Source: a virus. From it: DNA of 23,037 bases. The notes under the pieces are model-generated. The model saw only the letters and a list, made by a program, of their open reading frames with translations. It had not been told where the DNA came from and did not search any database. Within the stretch, counting starts at the first letter, position 1, and every line of letters begins with the position of its first letter. The stretch spans positions 1 to 23,037 of IMG/VR virus record IMGVR_UViG_3300021185_001486; one strand, 5' to 3'. This document shows, in pieces, positions 3 through 23,000 of the stretch. The translations under genes and the position numbers were made by a program.

Positions 3-536
3 GTCTATAGCTGGGTAACTGAGGCAGCGGTAGAAAGGCGCCAAGGTAAAACGGGTGCCGACTATAATAAATTTATAGGTAAAGGCGAGCTAACGGTAAC
101 ACCGGGTAACGTAACGGACTATAAATATATTAGCGAGGCTATTTACGAAGCTGCGGAGATGTTCAATATAAAGGCGATCGCTTACGATAGATGGAACTCT
201 AGCAGTTTAATAGCGGAGCTTGCAGAGGAGGGCCTACCGGTAGAGCCATACGGCCAAGGCTTCGCTAGTATGAGCCCAGCGGTTAAGCAGTTAGAGATAT
301 GGATAAGGAGCAACCAAATAGCCCACACGGGTAGCAACCTGCTAAGGTGGTGCGTAAGTAACGTGCAAGCTAAAACGGATCCGGCAGGAAATTTAAAGTT
401 TGATAAAAGCAAAAGCTCCGATAAGATCGACGTCGCGCAAGCTTGGGCCATTGCGGTAGGTATATGGCTTACGAAGCATAGGAGCGACGATAACGACGGC
501 AGTATATACGAAGACCGCGACCTTATTATACTGTAA
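3..536 (+). CDS. terL: Phage terminase large subunit, C-terminal part (5' truncated by window edge)
   Basis: This is the end of the packaging motor protein that translocates DNA into the capsid and cuts the concatemer. The reading frame is open from base 3, upstream of the first internal ATG at 159, so the gene begins outside the window and the ATPase half is not visible. What remains is the RNase H-like nuclease half. It has the pattern of the HK97-type terminase family (Terminase_1): 'AYDRW', a 'QGFASMSPAVKQLE' block, 'AHTGSNLLRW', and near the end 'KIDVAQAWAIAVG', whose Asp is the usual last metal-binding residue. The stop codon overlaps the ATG of the next small ORF by one base. The position just upstream of head genes fits standard late gene order. 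Confidence 0.9.
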   Translation, partial: VYSWVTEAAVERRQGKTGADYNKFIGKGELTVTPGNVTDYKYISEAIYEAAEMFNIKAIAYDRWNSSSLIAELAEEGLPVEPYGQGFASMSPAVKQLEIWIRSNQIAHTGSNLLRWCVSNVQAKTDPAGNLKFDKSKSSDKIDVAQAWAIAVGIWLTKHRSDDNDGSIYEDRDLIIL

Positions 537-709
537 TGACTGTAGAAGAAGCTAAAAAGCTAACTTTTTTTTTAATAGATAAAAATATTCACGCTTGGCC
601 CCAGCTCACTAGGGGCGGGGCCTGCGTAAATATTTTAGTAGAAGGTGAATGCTACCAGCTAAATAAAAATGAAAGTTTTTACGGGAAAGTTTGCATAAAT
701 AGAAAATAG
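536..709 (+). CDS. Small hypothetical protein (57 aa)
   Basis: A 57-residue ORF starts at the ATG that overlaps the terminase stop by one base (TAATG), a junction used repeatedly in this phage, so it is probably translated by coupling to the terminase. The sequence begins MTVEEAKKLT and ends KVCINRK. I see no signal peptide, membrane segment or known motif. It has two cysteines in the first two thirds (at about residues 30 and 39) and one near the end. Its 3' end overlaps the -33 element of the promoter that drives the next gene, so it closes the terminase transcript before the accessory island. The function is unknown. The one-base overlap and uninterrupted frame are the only support. Confidence 0.6.
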   Translation: MTVEEAKKLTFFLIDKNIHAWPQLTRGGACVNILVEGECYQLNKNESFYGKVCINRK

Positions 710-720
710 CCGTATATTTG
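690..720 (+). promoter_or_regulatory. Bacteroidota-type promoter (TTTG-N19-TATATTTG)
   Basis: TTTG at 690-693 and TATATTTG at 713-720 are separated by exactly 19 bases. This matches the -33 / -7 consensus described for the Bacteroidota primary sigma factor. The element is followed by a 37-base A-rich leader with a CAACAACAAC stretch and no Shine-Dalgarno, then the ATG at 758. The -33 half lies inside the end of the preceding ORF. Confidence 0.8.
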
Positions 721-757
721 AAGTGTCAAACAACAACAACTAAAAAACACTACAAAG

Positions 758-1135
758 ATGAGCACTAAAGTAAACTTCACTTCTTACGGCGTACAATTTA
801 AGAACATCGAAATTAACGGCGATACTTACGAGAAAGGCGTAAGCTACTACACAACTGGCCGCGGTCGTAATTCATTAGTAAAGCAATATGTAAAAGCTTT
901 ATACGGTGTTAAGTGTAGCGTAAATACAAACAGCTTCCGCAGTATAAATATAGATATTAAAGCAGAAGATATACCGGCAGACCTTCACGCCACAGCTAAA
1001 GCAGATCTTAAAAAAGTATTTTCTAGCGGTACTTATAACGCTATGGAAGATTACCACGACTACAAAGCTGTAGAGATTGAAAAGGAGCACGGTATAGACT
1101 GCTCAGTAAACTTTTTAAAAGTAAGCTTCGTATAA
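758..1135 (+). CDS. Hypothetical protein resembling LPD29-type polyvalent-protein domain (125 aa)
   Basis: A 125-residue soluble protein with its own promoter upstream and a strong terminator directly downstream, so it is an independent transcription unit. From memory of the family pattern, the stretch at residues 38-60 ('VKQYVKALYGVKCSVNTNSF') followed by 'INIDI', and later 'YNAMEDYHDYK', resembles large polyvalent protein-associated domain 29 (pattern roughly: helix, PGVKFSVRSS, strand, then FDGMxD). That domain occurs in phage and mobile-element proteins, and its function is unknown. No signal peptide or membrane segment is visible. The start is the first ATG after the promoter. It could instead be an unrelated small alpha/beta protein, because the match is by eye only. 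Confidence 0.75.
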   Translation: MSTKVNFTSYGVQFKNIEINGDTYEKGVSYYTTGRGRNSLVKQYVKALYGVKCSVNTNSFRSINIDIKAEDIPADLHATAKADLKKVFSSGTYNAMEDYHDYKAVEIEKEHGIDCSVNFLKVSFV

Positions 1136-1142
1136 ATAAGAG

Positions 1143-1163
1143 AGCCCCGGAAGGGGCTTTTTT
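1143..1163 (+). terminator. Rho-independent terminator
   Basis: A perfect 6-bp stem AGCCCC (1143-1148) / GGGGCT (1153-1158) with a GGAA tetraloop is followed by a run of T's ending at 1163. It sits 8 bases after the stop of the 758-1135 gene. It is nearly identical to the terminator at 1511-1532. Confidence 0.9.
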
Positions 1164-1202
1164 ATTACCCCTAAAAAATAAATGAAAATAAATACGTGTT
1201 TA

Positions 1203-1233
1203 TTTGCATAGATATAAAATAGCTGTATCTTTA
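1203..1233 (+). promoter_or_regulatory. Bacteroidota-type promoter (TTTG-N19-TATCTTTA)
   Basis: TTTG at 1203-1206 and TATCTTTA at 1226-1233 have a 19-base spacer, identical to the promoter at 690-720. The final G of the -7 element is replaced by A. A 31-base A-rich leader follows, and the ATG is at 1265. Confidence 0.75.
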
Positions 1234-1252
1234 CACCAGTAATAACAACAAA
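1230..1252 (+). repeat. Leader repeat, copy 1 (second copy at 1598-1620)
   Basis: Bases 1230-1252 are identical over 23 positions to bases 1598-1620. The repeat covers the end of the -7 element and the start of the 5' leader and contains CCAGTAATAACAACAAA. Shorter versions with the same CAACAACAA core occur in the leaders at 721-757 and 22652-22682. The conservation of leader and promoter together implies that the cassettes arose by duplication or share a regulatory need. Confidence 0.85.
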
Positions 1253-1264
1253 CACTACTACCAA

Positions 1265-1501
1265 ATGGAAATGCAAATAATACTAAATACAAAGGTTAGC
1301 CTAAAAGCAAACGGAGAGTACCACTACGAAGATGTTATATATACTTTTCACCAAGCTGGTAAATTTAGAAACTGGTACTGTATGTATAAAAGCCCTAAAA
1401 CCCACGATACAGTAGTAAGAGAATACAAAAGCGAAGCATCGGCTAAGGCAGCACAAAAAAGAATGCTTAAGCAGGGCGGCGTAGTAAGAGATCAGTACTA
1501 A
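1265..1501 (+). CDS. Small hypothetical protein in its own cassette (78 aa)
   Basis: A 78-residue basic protein, transcribed from its own promoter and closed by its own terminator. It begins MEMQIILNTK and has an N-terminal beta-rich part with 'GEYHYEDVIYTF' and 'WYCMYKS', then a lysine- and alanine-rich helix ('EASAKAAQKRMLKQ'). The layout (GEY, strands, W-x-x-Y, then a short helix) loosely recalls the GxY...GxxW..Y small proteins at 1631 and 22683. The identity is too low to claim common descent by eye. No catalytic motif, signal peptide or membrane segment is seen. The function is unknown; its position as an autonomous unit in the terminase-portal gap suggests an accessory role rather than a structural one. 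Confidence 0.75.
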   Translation: MEMQIILNTKVSLKANGEYHYEDVIYTFHQAGKFRNWYCMYKSPKTHDTVVREYKSEASAKAAQKRMLKQGGVVRDQY

Positions 1502-1510
1502 GAATAAGAG

Positions 1511-1532
1511 AGCCCCAGCCGGGGCTTTTTTT
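1511..1532 (+). terminator. Rho-independent terminator
   Basis: A stem AGCCCC (1511-1516) / GGGGCT (1521-1526) with loop AGCC is followed by seven T's. The preceding bases (AATAAGAGAGCCCC) are the same as those before the terminator at 1143, so the two terminators are near copies. Confidence 0.9.
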
Positions 1533-1570
1533 ATGCCCTAAAAATAAATATGAAAAAAAACCGCATTTTA

Positions 1571-1601
1571 TTTGCAGGGGAAAGAAAAGGCCGTATATTT
1601 A
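1571..1601 (+). promoter_or_regulatory. Bacteroidota-type promoter (TTTG-N19-TATATTTA)
   Basis: TTTG at 1571-1574 and TATATTTA at 1594-1601 again have a 19-base spacer. This is the third promoter of the same form within 900 bases. It is followed by the second copy of the 23-base leader repeat (1598-1620) and the ATG at 1631. Because the promoter lies inside the longest open frame from 1550, it argues against the 1550 start. Confidence 0.75.
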
Positions 1602-1630
1602 CACCAGTAATAACAACAAAGGCAAACAAG

Positions 1631-1810
1631 ATGACTACTACTAAACTAAGAAAAGGCGAATACACAGCGACGGTAAACGGTAAAACCTATAAAATCGAGC
1701 ACGATAACTTTGAAGGAGATAACGGCTGGAACCTTTATAACGAGGACTACGAATGGTGCGGCAGCGCTGACACTAAAAAGAAACTAGTACAAGCGTTAAA
1801 AAATTTATAA
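1631..1810 (+). CDS. Small hypothetical protein, MTTT family copy A (59 aa)
   Basis: A 59-residue protein starting MTTTKLRKGEY, with 'YKIEHDNFEGDNGWNLY' in the middle and a C-terminal lysine-rich helix. I chose the ATG at 1631 instead of the in-frame ATG at 1550 for two reasons. The promoter and conserved leader lie between them, and the start then aligns with the paralogue at 22683-22913 (MTTTRICRGVY, EGDCVWQIY). Shared features are MTTT, a Gly-x-Tyr, a central 'I..., EGD, W, Y' block and a helical tail, which suggests a compact beta-sheet plus helix fold. The function is unknown. The stop overlaps the next ATG by one base, and no terminator follows, so this promoter probably drives the following chain of small genes and perhaps the portal. 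Confidence 0.75.
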   Translation: MTTTKLRKGEYTATVNGKTYKIEHDNFEGDNGWNLYNEDYEWCGSADTKKKLVQALKNL

Positions 1811-2013
1811 TGCAAGACTGGCAAAAGCAGATACTATATAAAGAGCGCTTTATGAAAATTAAAAGAGTAATACAATACGCCGGCGCTGAGATCTTAGAGA
1901 CCCAGCCCGGCTTATTTACCGCCCTCCCGAATACCCCGAGCTTCTACGGAAGCCGCAAGTTTAACAGCTTAGAAAAAGCTAAATTTTATTTAAAGCAATG
2001 GCAAAGAAAGTAA
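1810..2013 (+). CDS. Small hypothetical protein (67 aa)
   Basis: This basic protein of 67 residues starts at the ATG overlapping the previous stop by one base. An alternative in-frame start at 1852 would give MKIKRVIQYAGAEI and 53 residues, which looks like a cleaner domain start. The body has 'GSRKFNSLEKAKFYLKQWQRK' spread over the last third, a pattern of short strands followed by an amphipathic basic helix. No membrane segment or known motif is visible. It is the second gene in a run of five tiny overlapping ORFs expressed from the promoter at 1571. Confidence 0.6.
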   Translation: MQDWQKQILYKERFMKIKRVIQYAGAEILETQPGLFTALPNTPSFYGSRKFNSLEKAKFYLKQWQRK

Positions 2014-2147
2014 TGACCCCCGAAGATAGAGAGCACCGTAATATAGCTTTAGCGCTTGGCGCTGGCTTGTTAGGCTTTCCAGTATTAACCTTAGTATTTA
2101 AGCTGTTTGCTTTTGTACAGTTTATAGCTTTTGGTTATGTTAGCTAA
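2013..2147 (+). CDS. Small membrane protein (44 aa)
   Basis: Begins at an ATG overlapping the previous stop by one base (MTPEDREHRN) and is then almost entirely hydrophobic from about residue 10 to the end, enough for one or two short membrane helices. An alternative start at 1998 adds five residues (MAKKV). There is no recognised motif. A small inner-membrane protein in a terminase-portal accessory island could act in host takeover or superinfection exclusion, but this is only inferred from size and location. It overlaps the next ORF by 11 bases. Confidence 0.55.
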   Translation: MTPEDREHRNIALALGAGLLGFPVLTLVFKLFAFVQFIAFGYVS

Positions 2148-2280
2148 TGATATAGAGTACTATTGCCAAAGCTGCGGAACGTATACCGCCAGCTTAAGTA
2201 ATATAACTGCGCTGCAAATTTGCGACCCCTGCGCCGCAGGATCCGAACAAGAACAAGAAGAGACCATTTTATTTATATGA
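2137..2280 (+). CDS. Zinc-ribbon-like microprotein (47 aa)
   Basis: A 47-residue ORF with two CxxC pairs: 'YCQSCGTY' near residue 10 and 'ICDPCAAG' near residue 29, about 18 residues apart. This is the classic layout of a four-cysteine zinc ribbon. The tail is acidic (EQEQEE) and ends TILFI. It starts within the end of the membrane-protein gene (11-base overlap), and its TGA overlaps the next ATG as ATGA. Small phage zinc ribbons usually bind host transcription or DNA-modifying proteins or nucleic acid; which one applies here cannot be read from sequence. The paired cysteines and the ATGA junction make it a plausible real gene despite its size. Confidence 0.65.
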   Translation: MLANDIEYYCQSCGTYTASLSNITALQICDPCAAGSEQEQEETILFI

Positions 2281-2453
2281 GAATTATTTTAGTAGAGCAT
2301 AAGAGCTCTAGAAAGGTAGAAGGGTATAGAACCCTTACCAAAGCCTGCAAGGCCTTAGACATCAACTACAGTACTATTACTAAGATTATAAACGGTAACT
2401 GCAACTACTACGAAAACGAAAAGCTAAAGCTTACGCGCCTACCTATACAATAA
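2277..2453 (+). CDS. Small HTH / NUMOD1-like DNA-binding protein (58 aa)
   Basis: The ORF is open upstream to 2220, but the ATG at 2277, which overlaps the preceding TGA, is the likely start and gives MRIILVEHKS. Residues about 15-45 read 'RTLTKACKALDINYSTITKIINGN', the pattern of a short helix-turn-helix seen in NUMOD1-type repeats: (T/S)-L-x-K-A-x-K-x-L-[GD]-[IL]-x-x-x-T-[IV]-x-x-[IA]-[IL]-x-G. Such modules bind DNA, either as regulators or as parts of homing endonucleases; here it stands alone with no nuclease domain. It is the last gene before the portal and could regulate the island or the late promoter. The assignment is by motif reading only. Confidence 0.7.
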   Translation: MRIILVEHKSSRKVEGYRTLTKACKALDINYSTITKIINGNCNYYENEKLKLTRLPIQ

Positions 2454-2490: not shown

Positions 2491-2498
2491 TATATTTG
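2491..2498 (+). promoter_or_regulatory. Possible promoter -7 element before the portal gene
   Basis: TATATTTG matches the -7 consensus exactly and lies 22 bases before the portal start. No TTTG is found at the expected 19-base spacing upstream; a T-rich run ending TTTTTTG is immediately adjacent instead. If active, the leader would be very short. It could allow head genes to be expressed separately from the island. Confidence 0.4.
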
Positions 2499-2520: not shown

Positions 2521-3741
2521 TTGGCAGAAAATAACAATAGCGGGCTATTTGCTCGCCTTTTTAGAAGCTCCCCCGAAAACCCCAGTACGAGTTTAAGTAA
2601 CCCGGCTGCGTGGCTTACGGGGCTTTTTGGTACTAGTAAGACGGGAGTACAAGTAAGCGAAGATAACGCGCTTACTTTTAGCGCTGTTTATGCAGCCGTA
2701 AGGATCATTAGCGAAACTATAGCTAGTATACCTTTAAACGTCTACCAAGCGGACGGGGAAACCCGCGTAAAAGCTGTAGGCCATCCAGTACAAGACTTAC
2801 TAGCGAAAGCACCTAATAGCGTAAGCTCTACCTTTACCTTCCGCGAGGCTATGGCCTCTAATTTGGTTTTGCACGGTAACGCCTACGCTAAGATAGAGAT
2901 GAACGCAGCAGGACGTCCTACGGCGCTTATACCTTTGAACCCTATGAAGGTCGAGGTAAAAGTAGTAGACGGCGAGAAGGTCTACGTATTCGATGAAAAG
3001 CACACGTACCTAGATTATGAGATGCTCCACTTTGTAGGGCTAAGCTTTAACGGTTTAGTAGGAAAGAGCCCGCTTTCAATGGCACGCGAAGCCGTAGCTA
3101 TTGGCCTAGCGGCCCAAGAGTACGGCGCGCGTTTCTATTCTAACGGTGCGAACGCCGGCGGAGTTATTACAGCTCCTGGCCGATTAAATACTGAAGTAGT
3201 TAAAAGGCTACGCGAAAGCTGGAACCGTGCCCAATCGGGTTTAAGCTCTAGCCACTCTACGGCGATACTCGAGGAGGGTATGAAGTACGAGAAAATCGGA
3301 CTAGATCCGGAGGCGGCCCAGTTCTTACAGTCTCGTAAATTCCAAGTAAACGAAATAGCTAGAATCTTTAGAATACCTCCGAGCTACTTAGCAGACCTAG
3401 AGAATAGCTCTACGCGTGCTAATACGGAACAGCAGGCTATACAGTTCGTTAGGGACTGTATAACGCCTTACGTCCGCCGTATGGAGGTAGAGCTAAACCG
3501 TAAGCTATTTAGAGAAGACGAGCCCAACCTTTACGCTTACTTCACTATGGAGGGGCTAATGAGGGGAGACCAAAAGGCTAGATATGAAGCTTACGCCGTG
3601 GCGCGTAACTGGGGCTGGCTTTCGGTAAACGATATTAGAGACCTAGAGAACCTTAACCCGGTAGAGGGTGGGGACATTTACCTACAGCCTCTTAATATGC
3701 AGAGAGCAGGCGAAGACGACACTAACGTAGACGTCGACTAA
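2521..3741 (+). CDS. Portal protein, HK97 family
   Basis: The dodecameric portal forms the vertex ring through which DNA enters the head and to which the tail attaches. The protein has 406 residues, a normal length. It shows the family pattern: 'LFARLF' at the N terminus, 'ALTFSAVYAAVRIISETIASIPLNVY', then 'VLHGNAYAKIEMN', 'PLNPMKVEV', 'GKSPLSMAREAV', 'IFRIPPSYLADL', and 'TEQQAIQFVRDCITPYVRRME' near residue 300. An in-frame TAG at 2515-2517 directly precedes the TTG at 2521, and there is no usable ATG near the conserved N terminus, so a TTG start is the best choice. The stop shares one base with the ATG of the protease. Ile is encoded by ATA in 9 of 17 cases, the typical habit of this phage. 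Confidence 0.95.
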   Translation: MAENNNSGLFARLFRSSPENPSTSLSNPAAWLTGLFGTSKTGVQVSEDNALTFSAVYAAVRIISETIASIPLNVYQADGETRVKAVGHPVQDLLAKAPNSVSSTFTFREAMASNLVLHGNAYAKIEMNAAGRPTALIPLNPMKVEVKVVDGEKVYVFDEKHTYLDYEMLHFVGLSFNGLVGKSPLSMAREAVAIGLAAQEYGARFYSNGANAGGVITAPGRLNTEVVKRLRESWNRAQSGLSSSHSTAILEEGMKYEKIGLDPEAAQFLQSRKFQVNEIARIFRIPPSYLADLENSSTRANTEQQAIQFVRDCITPYVRRMEVELNRKLFREDEPNLYAYFTMEGLMRGDQKARYEAYAVARNWGWLSVNDIRDLENLNPVEGGDIYLQPLNMQRAGEDDTNVDVD

Positions 3742-22437: not shown

Positions 22438-22643
22438 AAAAGCAACAAAGGGATTTATTGTGCAATAGGTTTAAATACTTAATTTAACTTCTCTAGAGCT
22501 TTTTTGGTTGGGGTGTATATTCGGGGGCAGAGCTTAAAATAAATGTAAGCGGGAAGCCCTATGTTTACTAGGGCCGGGGCGCGTGAGCGAAAATAAATGC
22601 ACTTTTTTTACTATACCATTAGGATATATGAAAAGAAAGCCCT
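22438..22643. other. Intergenic region without a convincing gene
   Basis: About 200 bases with no ORF worth calling on either strand. It holds a 6-bp hairpin GCCCTA (22556-22561) / TAGGGC (22569-22574) with a 7-base loop. There are also AAAATAAATG stretches near 22537 and 22591 that resemble the bases preceding the promoters at 1203 and 1571. The 3' part leads into the promoter-like site at 22644. Confidence 0.6.
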
Positions 22644-22651
22644 TATATTTG
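22644..22651 (+). promoter_or_regulatory. Promoter -7 element TATATTTG of the fourth cassette
   Basis: An exact TATATTTG, followed by a 31-base leader containing CAACAAACAACAACAAAA and then the ATG at 22683. The leader type and spacing match the cassettes at 690, 1203 and 1571. The bases 19 upstream are not TTTG, so the -33 element is poor; expression may be weaker or need a phage factor. Confidence 0.55.
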
Positions 22652-22682
22652 TCTCAACAAACAACAACAAAACATAACTACT

Positions 22683-22913
22683 ATGACAACTACTAGAATT
22701 TGCAGAGGTGTATACCAATTAGAGTACAAGGGCCACATTATTCAAATAAGCAATGAGGCGGAATGGCTAGAGGGAGATTGTGTATGGCAAATTTACTCGA
22801 ACACTTTAGACGTAGACTATAACGAGGGTAAGTGGGACACGCTATACAAAACAAAGGGAGAAGCTTTAGAAAGACTTCCGGAGATATTAGAAACTTCAAA
22901 GCCTTTTAATTAA
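22683..22913 (+). CDS. Small hypothetical protein, MTTT family copy B (76 aa)
   Basis: A 76-residue acidic protein starting MTTTRICRGVYQLEYKG. It shares with the protein at 1631-1810 the MTTT[KR] start, G-x-Y at the same position, an Ile block, 'EGD..W.[IL]Y' in the centre and a helical tail (KTKGEALERLPEIL). Copy B has about 12 additional residues after the W-x-x-Y block (NTLDVDYNEGKWDT). Both genes follow the same promoter and leader type. A fold of antiparallel strands plus a helix is likely. The function is unknown. It lies beyond the lysis genes, probably near the next early or regulatory region of the phage. Confidence 0.78.
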   Translation: MTTTRICRGVYQLEYKGHIIQISNEAEWLEGDCVWQIYSNTLDVDYNEGKWDTLYKTKGEALERLPEILETSKPFN

Positions 22914-22937
22914 ATACAAATAGCTTACACTCAACAC

Positions 22938-23000
22938 CCCCCGCCTTAAGCAGTTAGGTTCTTTTGGTTTGGTTTTTAAACGCTGGGGCGGGGGTTTCTT
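22938..23000 (+). terminator. Possible terminator with a long loop
   Basis: CCCCCGCC (22938-22945) can pair with GGCGGGGG (22987-22994), followed by TTTCTTTT. The 41-base loop is longer than usual, so the stem may instead close a structured element. Its place after the MTTT copy B gene mirrors the terminators that end the cassettes at 1143 and 1511. Confidence 0.5.

Follow-up and report, generated by a model that had tools for sequence, protein, structure and literature searches.

A probable docking site for single accessory genes between the terminase and portal genes of phages with Bacteroidota-type promoters

The gap between the genes of the terminase large subunit (terL) and the portal protein in a group of tailed phages with Bacteroidota-type promoters is probably an exchange or docking site for single accessory genes, which would be read by the host RNA polymerase and refilled by recombination within constant parts. 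The DNA analysed, 23,037 bases long and referred to here as the window, is a virus record in IMG/VR; it starts inside the terL gene and continues with the portal gene and a long block of genes on the same strand (Table 1). In these phages the parts of the site are constant, the small cargo genes vary, the junctions are sharp and one pair of phages differs by one whole unit.

The three promoters of the pattern TTTG-N19-TA(T)NTTT(G/A) described in a first-pass annotation of the window were recovered, with a spacing of exactly 19 bases in each, and so were the two near-identical AGCCCC/GGGGCT terminators after genes A and B and, by reading, the 23-nt identity of leaders 2 and 3, TTTACACCAGTAATAACAACAAA. 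Pfam matches (PF20441, PF04860) bear out the two neighbours it had named, TerL and portal. In the gap (536-2521) the promoter pattern is found three times, against a mean of 0.011 and a maximum of 1 in 2,000 dinucleotide shuffles, and the terminator pattern twice, against 0 in 2,000 shuffles; neither pattern was found on either strand in the rest of the window, and an Rfam search of positions 500-2600 gave no match. The repeat is larger than first described and consists of 118 nt of terminator, promoter and leader, with 76% identity between the copies. Leader 1 (type G) is of another class, TATATTTG-AAGTGTCAAACAACAACAAC, than leaders 2 and 3 (type A). For terminators 1 and 2 the folding energies are -18.8 and -16.0 kcal/mol (z -6.0 and -4.5 against shuffles); a simple terminator scan placed both hairpins on the - strand only, and folding of the + strand settled the orientation. 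The leaders of the window are unstructured upon folding. Type G leaders (window 721-757 and 12 relatives) share an inverted repeat whose loop varies, AGTGT(C)...(G)ACACT, and which may be an operator or a remnant; a leader hairpin formed by AGTGT...ACACT was considered and rejected, the window leader being unstructured from its predicted start.

Table 1. Features of the window in the terL-portal gap, its flanks and the second site.
Feature	Position	Strand	Support
TerL, C-terminal part, left constant flank	3..536	+	PF20441 E 3.2e-27; PHROG terminase large subunit
F4, conserved 57-aa ORF, 3' end overlapping promoter 1	536..709	+	29/33 gaps
Promoter 1, TTTG-N19-TATATTTG	690..720	+	core identical in first slots of 4 relatives
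Leader 1, type G (AAGTGTCAAACAACAACAAC...)	721..757	+	type G confined to first slots of multi-cassette gaps, 13/16
Gene A, cargo family K1, 125 aa	758..1135	+	11 gaps, 28-98% identity
Repeat block copy 1, terminator-promoter-leader	1135..1252	+	76% identity with 1503-1620 over 118 nt
Terminator 1, AGCCCC-GGAA-GGGGCT then T6	1143..1158	+	pattern, shuffles, folding
Promoter 2, TTTG-N19-TATCTTTA	1203..1233	+	pattern match, shuffles
Leader 2, type A (CACCAGTAATAACAACAAA...)	1234..1264	+	leader class
Gene B, cargo family K6, 78 aa	1265..1501	+	also sole cargo of L056; missing from L002
Repeat block copy 2, terminator-promoter-leader	1503..1620	+	near-identical block after gene A in L002
Terminator 2, AGCCCC-AGCC-GGGGCT then T7	1511..1526	+	pattern, shuffles, folding
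Promoter 3, TTTGCAGGGGAAAGAAAAGGCCGTATATTTA	1571..1601	+	identical in six phages ahead of five cargo families
Leader 3, type A	1602..1630	+	leader class
Gene C, cargo family K2 (phrog_2287), 59 aa, last slot	1631..1810	+	driven by promoter 3 (predicted); no terminator
F1, constant gene, start codon at right edge of exchanged region	1810..2013	+	33/33 gaps
F2, constant gene	1998..2147	+	33/33 gaps
F5, small gene, CxxC...CxxC pattern (by reading)	2137..2280	+	21/33 gaps
F3, constant gene, NUMOD/HTH-like motif	2277..2453	+	33/33 gaps; PF22083 E 1.1e-4, under family cut-off
TATATTTG ahead of portal, without -33 TTTG	2491..2498	+	same element upstream of portal in G002
Portal, right constant flank	2521..3741	+	PF04860 E 9.9e-107
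Second site, TATATTTG and leader	22644..22682	+	constant in 4 distinct phages ahead of three different ORFs
Second site, cargo of 76 aa, phrog_2287 like gene C	22683..22913	+	family match
Second site, constant GC-rich inverted repeat CCCCCGCC...GGCGGGGG with T-rich tail	22937..22998	+	same place in L096, L173, L174

In order to compare the site among relatives, IMG/VR was scanned with the portal protein (78 loci), and the terL-portal gaps of relatives with TerL and portal identities of about 81% or more were searched with a profile of promoter and leader. After removal of duplicates, and with the inclusion of shorter contigs reaching F1, the set comprises 38 distinct TerL-F1 gaps. Every relative was assembled from metagenomes, where contigs can be wrongly joined at short repeats. 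The frame terL-F4-(cassettes)-F1-F2-(F5)-F3-portal is constant apart from the cassettes, and the occurrence of its genes in the 33 complete gaps is given in Table 1. In the distant relatives L069, L072, L074, L075 and L077 TerL and portal are spaced by -21 to +41 nt, and in L076 by 1,087 nt; the cassettes are inserted between genes which are adjacent in most of the distant relatives with a measured gap. In the invariant neighbour F3 there is a NUMOD/I-HmuI-like motif for DNA binding, but no nuclease domain. The TATATTTG element ahead of the portal gene suggests that this gene may have a separate promoter.

The 38 gaps contain 58 cassettes, each with its promoter: one in 22 gaps, two in 13, three in 2 and four in 1. 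Their cargo falls into 23 families (phmmer E < 1e-3, with weak links between some), genes A, B and C being assigned to separate ones. One identical 31-nt promoter core stands ahead of five unrelated cargo families in six phages, and another ahead of five families in five phages. In pairs of last slots with different cargo the cargo is 51.5% identical, against a shuffled baseline of 48.9%, the corresponding values for terL, promoter and leader being 84, 72 and 83%. The relatives thus do not carry the same genes in the same order, and the earlier proposal of a site where small accessory genes lie behind constant promoter and leader parts is supported by the 38 gaps. In the complete relative (G002) the promoter/leader profile matches only in the terL-portal gap. 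A 25-nt promoter/leader motif, GTATNTTTACANCAGTAATAACAAC, also lies ahead of a gene of 85-87 aa in another phage group (L086, L087, L102, L107, L111, L121), so that the leader is common beyond the lineage of the window. In L038 and L091, K5 and its hairpin are followed by a second gene without recognisable promoter, possibly a cassette which has lost it.

The consensus of the Bacteroidota primary sigma factor has TAHHTTTG at -7 and TTTG at -33 (PMC6847099; also PMC7366714). Promoters of the window type fit these elements: TTTG-N19-TATNTTT is found in 50 of the 58, the spacing is N20 in one and an element is changed (degenerate) in seven, and the -7 element of type A ends in A, departing from TAHHTTTG. 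As the elements match this consensus, the host RNA polymerase is the likely reader. If the -7 element is taken to end at -5, according to the convention for F. johnsoniae (PMC6847099), transcription starts are predicted at 725, 1238 and 1606, at most two bases from the 727, 1240 and 1608 proposed earlier. The host polymerase would start at about these positions and make short transcripts, whose unstructured, A-rich leaders would suit initiation without a Shine-Dalgarno sequence; the hairpins would end the first two transcripts, insulating each internal cassette, and the last transcript would continue into F1-F2-F5-F3.

The terminator follows the slot and not the gene. All 20 internal cassettes end in a hairpin (19 perfect, one with a G-U pair), and 35 of the 38 last cassettes have none, the cargo stop there usually overlapping or nearly touching the start of F1, as the stop of gene C does (1810). 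Eight cargo families are found in slots of different kinds, and since the same family is found with and without terminator, the terminator belongs to the slot boundary. To judge from these gaps, what stays constant is the unit terminator-promoter-leader, and what varies is the ORF; the constant unit is the spacer repeated between slots, each slot holding one small ORF. The last cassette would be read through into F1-F2-F5-F3 and is not an autonomous moron. At the level of sequence, genes A and B have a promoter and a terminator of their own and gene C, which has no terminator, does not; the independent transcription proposed in the first-pass annotation has support at this level.

Of the two leader classes, type G precedes four cargo families and type A is found everywhere else. 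The family of gene A is found under both leader classes and in first slots only, so that exchange is not free. Promoters of the same slot are more alike (0.864) than those of different slots within one genome (0.747). Concerted evolution of the promoters within one genome was considered and discarded, as spacers are no closer within than between genomes, and there is therefore no sign of frequent recombination between the slots of one genome. The same comparison bears on another possible origin, in which one ancestral cassette was duplicated in tandem and the genes then diverged; this is already disfavoured, and we consider it very improbable. The 76% identity of the blocks 1135-1252 and 1503-1620 and the identical cores of slots 2 and 3 in L003 would agree with such an origin, but genes A, B and C belong to separate families, the promoters within a genome are not closer than between genomes, and the same slot in relatives holds different genes between near-identical flanks.

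The edges of the exchanged region are well defined. At the left junction, in 121 pairs with different first cargo and TerL identity of at least 90%, identity is 0.78-0.97 up to the start codon and 0.54, 0.38 and then 0.28, the level of chance, past it; at the right junction (98 pairs) it rises from 0.38 to 0.97 at the inner ATG of F1. Both junctions being sharp, exchange occurs ORF for ORF. The nearest relative with a different array, L002, has a terL which is 100% identical at the protein level, and carries gene A followed directly by a near-copy of terminator 2 and promoter 3 of the window. The switch between blocks lies inside AATAAGAGAGCCCC, common to both window terminators, and the two phages are one whole repeat unit apart, gene B included; their last cargo is also different. 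Recombination between co-infecting phages would fit these junctions as the route of refilling. Slots would be gained, lost and refilled by homologous recombination, either between the repeated spacers or between leader and F1; the constant parts give homology on both sides of the cargo, so that a slot could be refilled with its expression undisturbed.

Sharp junctions at gene edges are also known from phage mosaicism, where they result from illegitimate recombination plus selection, and the junctions described could have arisen in this way. The signals would then be ordinary late-operon promoters, the last one belonging to the F1-F2-F5-F3 operon; the small genes would have entered by rare illegitimate recombination and the repeats would reflect selection for the same strong promoter. 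The 22 gaps with a single promoter and a transcript into F1, and the greater likeness of same-slot promoters, agree with this explanation, which we nevertheless regard as unlikely: the leader is identical up to the ATG of unrelated genes, well past the needs of a promoter, the window and L002 differ by a whole unit with the switch inside the repeat, and type G leaders are shared by four cargo families as both leader classes are by the family of gene A. A docking site refilled through its constant parts remains our preferred reading. The relative G002 (L136/L137, 30,878 bp) is complete, with a 141-nt direct terminal repeat that is probably an assembly overlap, and carries genes for a C5 methyltransferase, a prim-pol/AAA protein, an HNH protein and an M15 peptidase. 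It encodes a PD-(D/E)XK nuclease of the DUF3799 family and an ORF which by eye we take to resemble a single-strand-binding protein, although it has no Pfam match; together the two could supply phage recombination.

The cargo proteins are short, with a median of 77 aa and a range of 32-160, and in Pfam, PHROGs and PADLOC they matched only families of unknown function. Isolated Pfam matches (DUF6329, malic enzyme N-terminus and others; E 1e-4 to 0.05) were judged chance or uninformative. Thirty cargo proteins gave no known defence family in PADLOC, a library of defence and not of counter-defence models. Gene A has no relative in Pfam, PHROG, PADLOC or PDB, and its weak structure model (pLDDT 71) is without structural match; the family of gene C is modelled at pLDDT 90 with five strands and one helix (best PDB match E 0.8). 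Three further families match PHROGs: K3 (phrog_6004), which occurs in mycobacteriophages, an E. coli phage and Methylophilales phages, K18 (phrog_7799) in cyanophages and Methylophilales phages, and K9 (phrog_21303), which is related to proteins of Bacillus phage SPR and Pseudomonas phage ZRG1. In other viral contigs K3 often lies behind its own TTTG/TANNTTTR promoter with another leader, which fits a pool of small phage accessory genes adopting local expression signals, and the sharing of cargo families with mycobacteriophages and T4-like cyanophages suggests a gene pool crossing phage groups. By analogy, a role in host takeover or counter-defence, by which the cargo would counter or redirect the host, is the most likely class of function.

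Expression in the lysogen, as proposed in the first-pass annotation, was not supported. Cassettes with their own promoter and terminator outside the late programme correspond to the original layout of morons (PMC6316719), and transcription during lysogeny is common for the accessory loci of prophages (PMC7067206); both points would speak for classical morons of temperate phages, expressed from the prophage and changing the host. Against this, the phage-integrase domain PF00589 is absent from 14 relative records, no integrase is apparent in the complete relative of about 30.7 kb, and a close-relative search of 84,980 bacterial and archaeal species genomes found no prophage relative beyond 47% portal identity. 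We therefore give lysogen morons very little credence, and a virulent lifestyle is more likely. The same genome collection yielded only portal relatives of 41-47% identity, all in Firmicutes, so it is the promoter type which points to the host, and the phages probably infect Bacteroidota.

Another site of this kind is found at 22620-22998 of the window, where the constant promoter/leader set differs from that of the terL-portal gap and where relatives carry unrelated ORFs of 66 and 79 aa between the same flanks. The pattern being the same, the logic of the docking site is not confined to the terL-portal gap. It is conceivable, and we put it forward tentatively, that each genome has at least two docking sites with different sets of constant signals, that the signals double as recombination arms, and that a shared pool of small counter-defence or host-takeover genes circulates through them ORF by ORF. 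If so, phages of Bacteroidota would possess a plug-in system, of natural origin, for genes of host interaction.

The discovery of accessory genes in phages is mostly a matter of chance. In these phages they are marked by their position and by a fixed 31-nt promoter with its leader, so that one pattern search lists the candidates (23 families in 38 gaps); nearly all of these families are without known relative and constitute a ready list of likely host-interaction genes. The site is also a clean natural experiment on how single genes can be swapped between phages with regulation intact.

In the open-licence articles searched, no description of the present docking site was found, and several known systems resemble it in part. 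In the PeSL elements of T4-type phages (Arbiol 2010), a promoter and a stem-loop terminator are repeated between small variable genes, and gene shuffling with expression kept is proposed (PMC4503421). A composite of stem-loop terminator and promoter is likewise found at the 20 of 20 internal boundaries of the present site. PeSLs belong to T4-type myoviruses with T4 early promoters; the present phages are small (the complete relative mentioned above), with an HK97-type TerL/portal/capsid set, TTTG/TANNTTTR promoters, fixed docking sites and ORF-for-ORF junctions. As phage type and promoter class differ, the element is not a PeSL in the strict sense, and shuffling by recombination in the repeats, as proposed for PeSLs, would fit the one whole-unit difference with its switch in the repeat and the junctions at ORF edges. 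The idea of shuffling by promoter and stem-loop, conceived for T4-type phages, is thereby carried over to small ones whose promoters are of the Bacteroidota type.

Like the morons of lambdoid and SPP1-like phages, the cassettes are extra transcription units between conserved late genes, and the lytic phage SPP1 has its moron ORFs 3-5 between terminase and portal (PMC6316719). The variable presence among relatives which is typical of morons was found here (23 families in 38 gaps), but in the present site one set of signals is shared by all the serial slots, the last of which is not autonomous, and lysogeny is not indicated. In actinobacteriophages, conserved repeats (SAS/ESAS in cluster K, and those of Microbacterium cluster EC) stand just upstream of the starts of variable small genes, with four copies between terminase and portal in cluster EC, and have no established role (PMC3203893, PMC7302621). 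Their position is alike; here the repeat can be read as a terminator with promoter and leader, and it is unrelated to theirs in sequence (the 13-bp GGGATAGGAGCCC is not a motif of this site). The haloarchaeal virus HGTV-1 has, in one half of its genome, a TATA-like box and an inverted repeat ahead of most ORFs, a motif which its authors compare with PeSLs (PMC3950731); that motif belongs to an archaeal virus and is spread over half a genome, whereas the present one is limited to the slots. Integron gene cassettes are likewise serial, of single genes and mostly of unknown function, but here no integrase was found (PF00589, 14 records), no attC-like element was seen and each cassette has its promoter. 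By analogy, the site would work like the PeSL spacers of T4-type phages or like serial morons.
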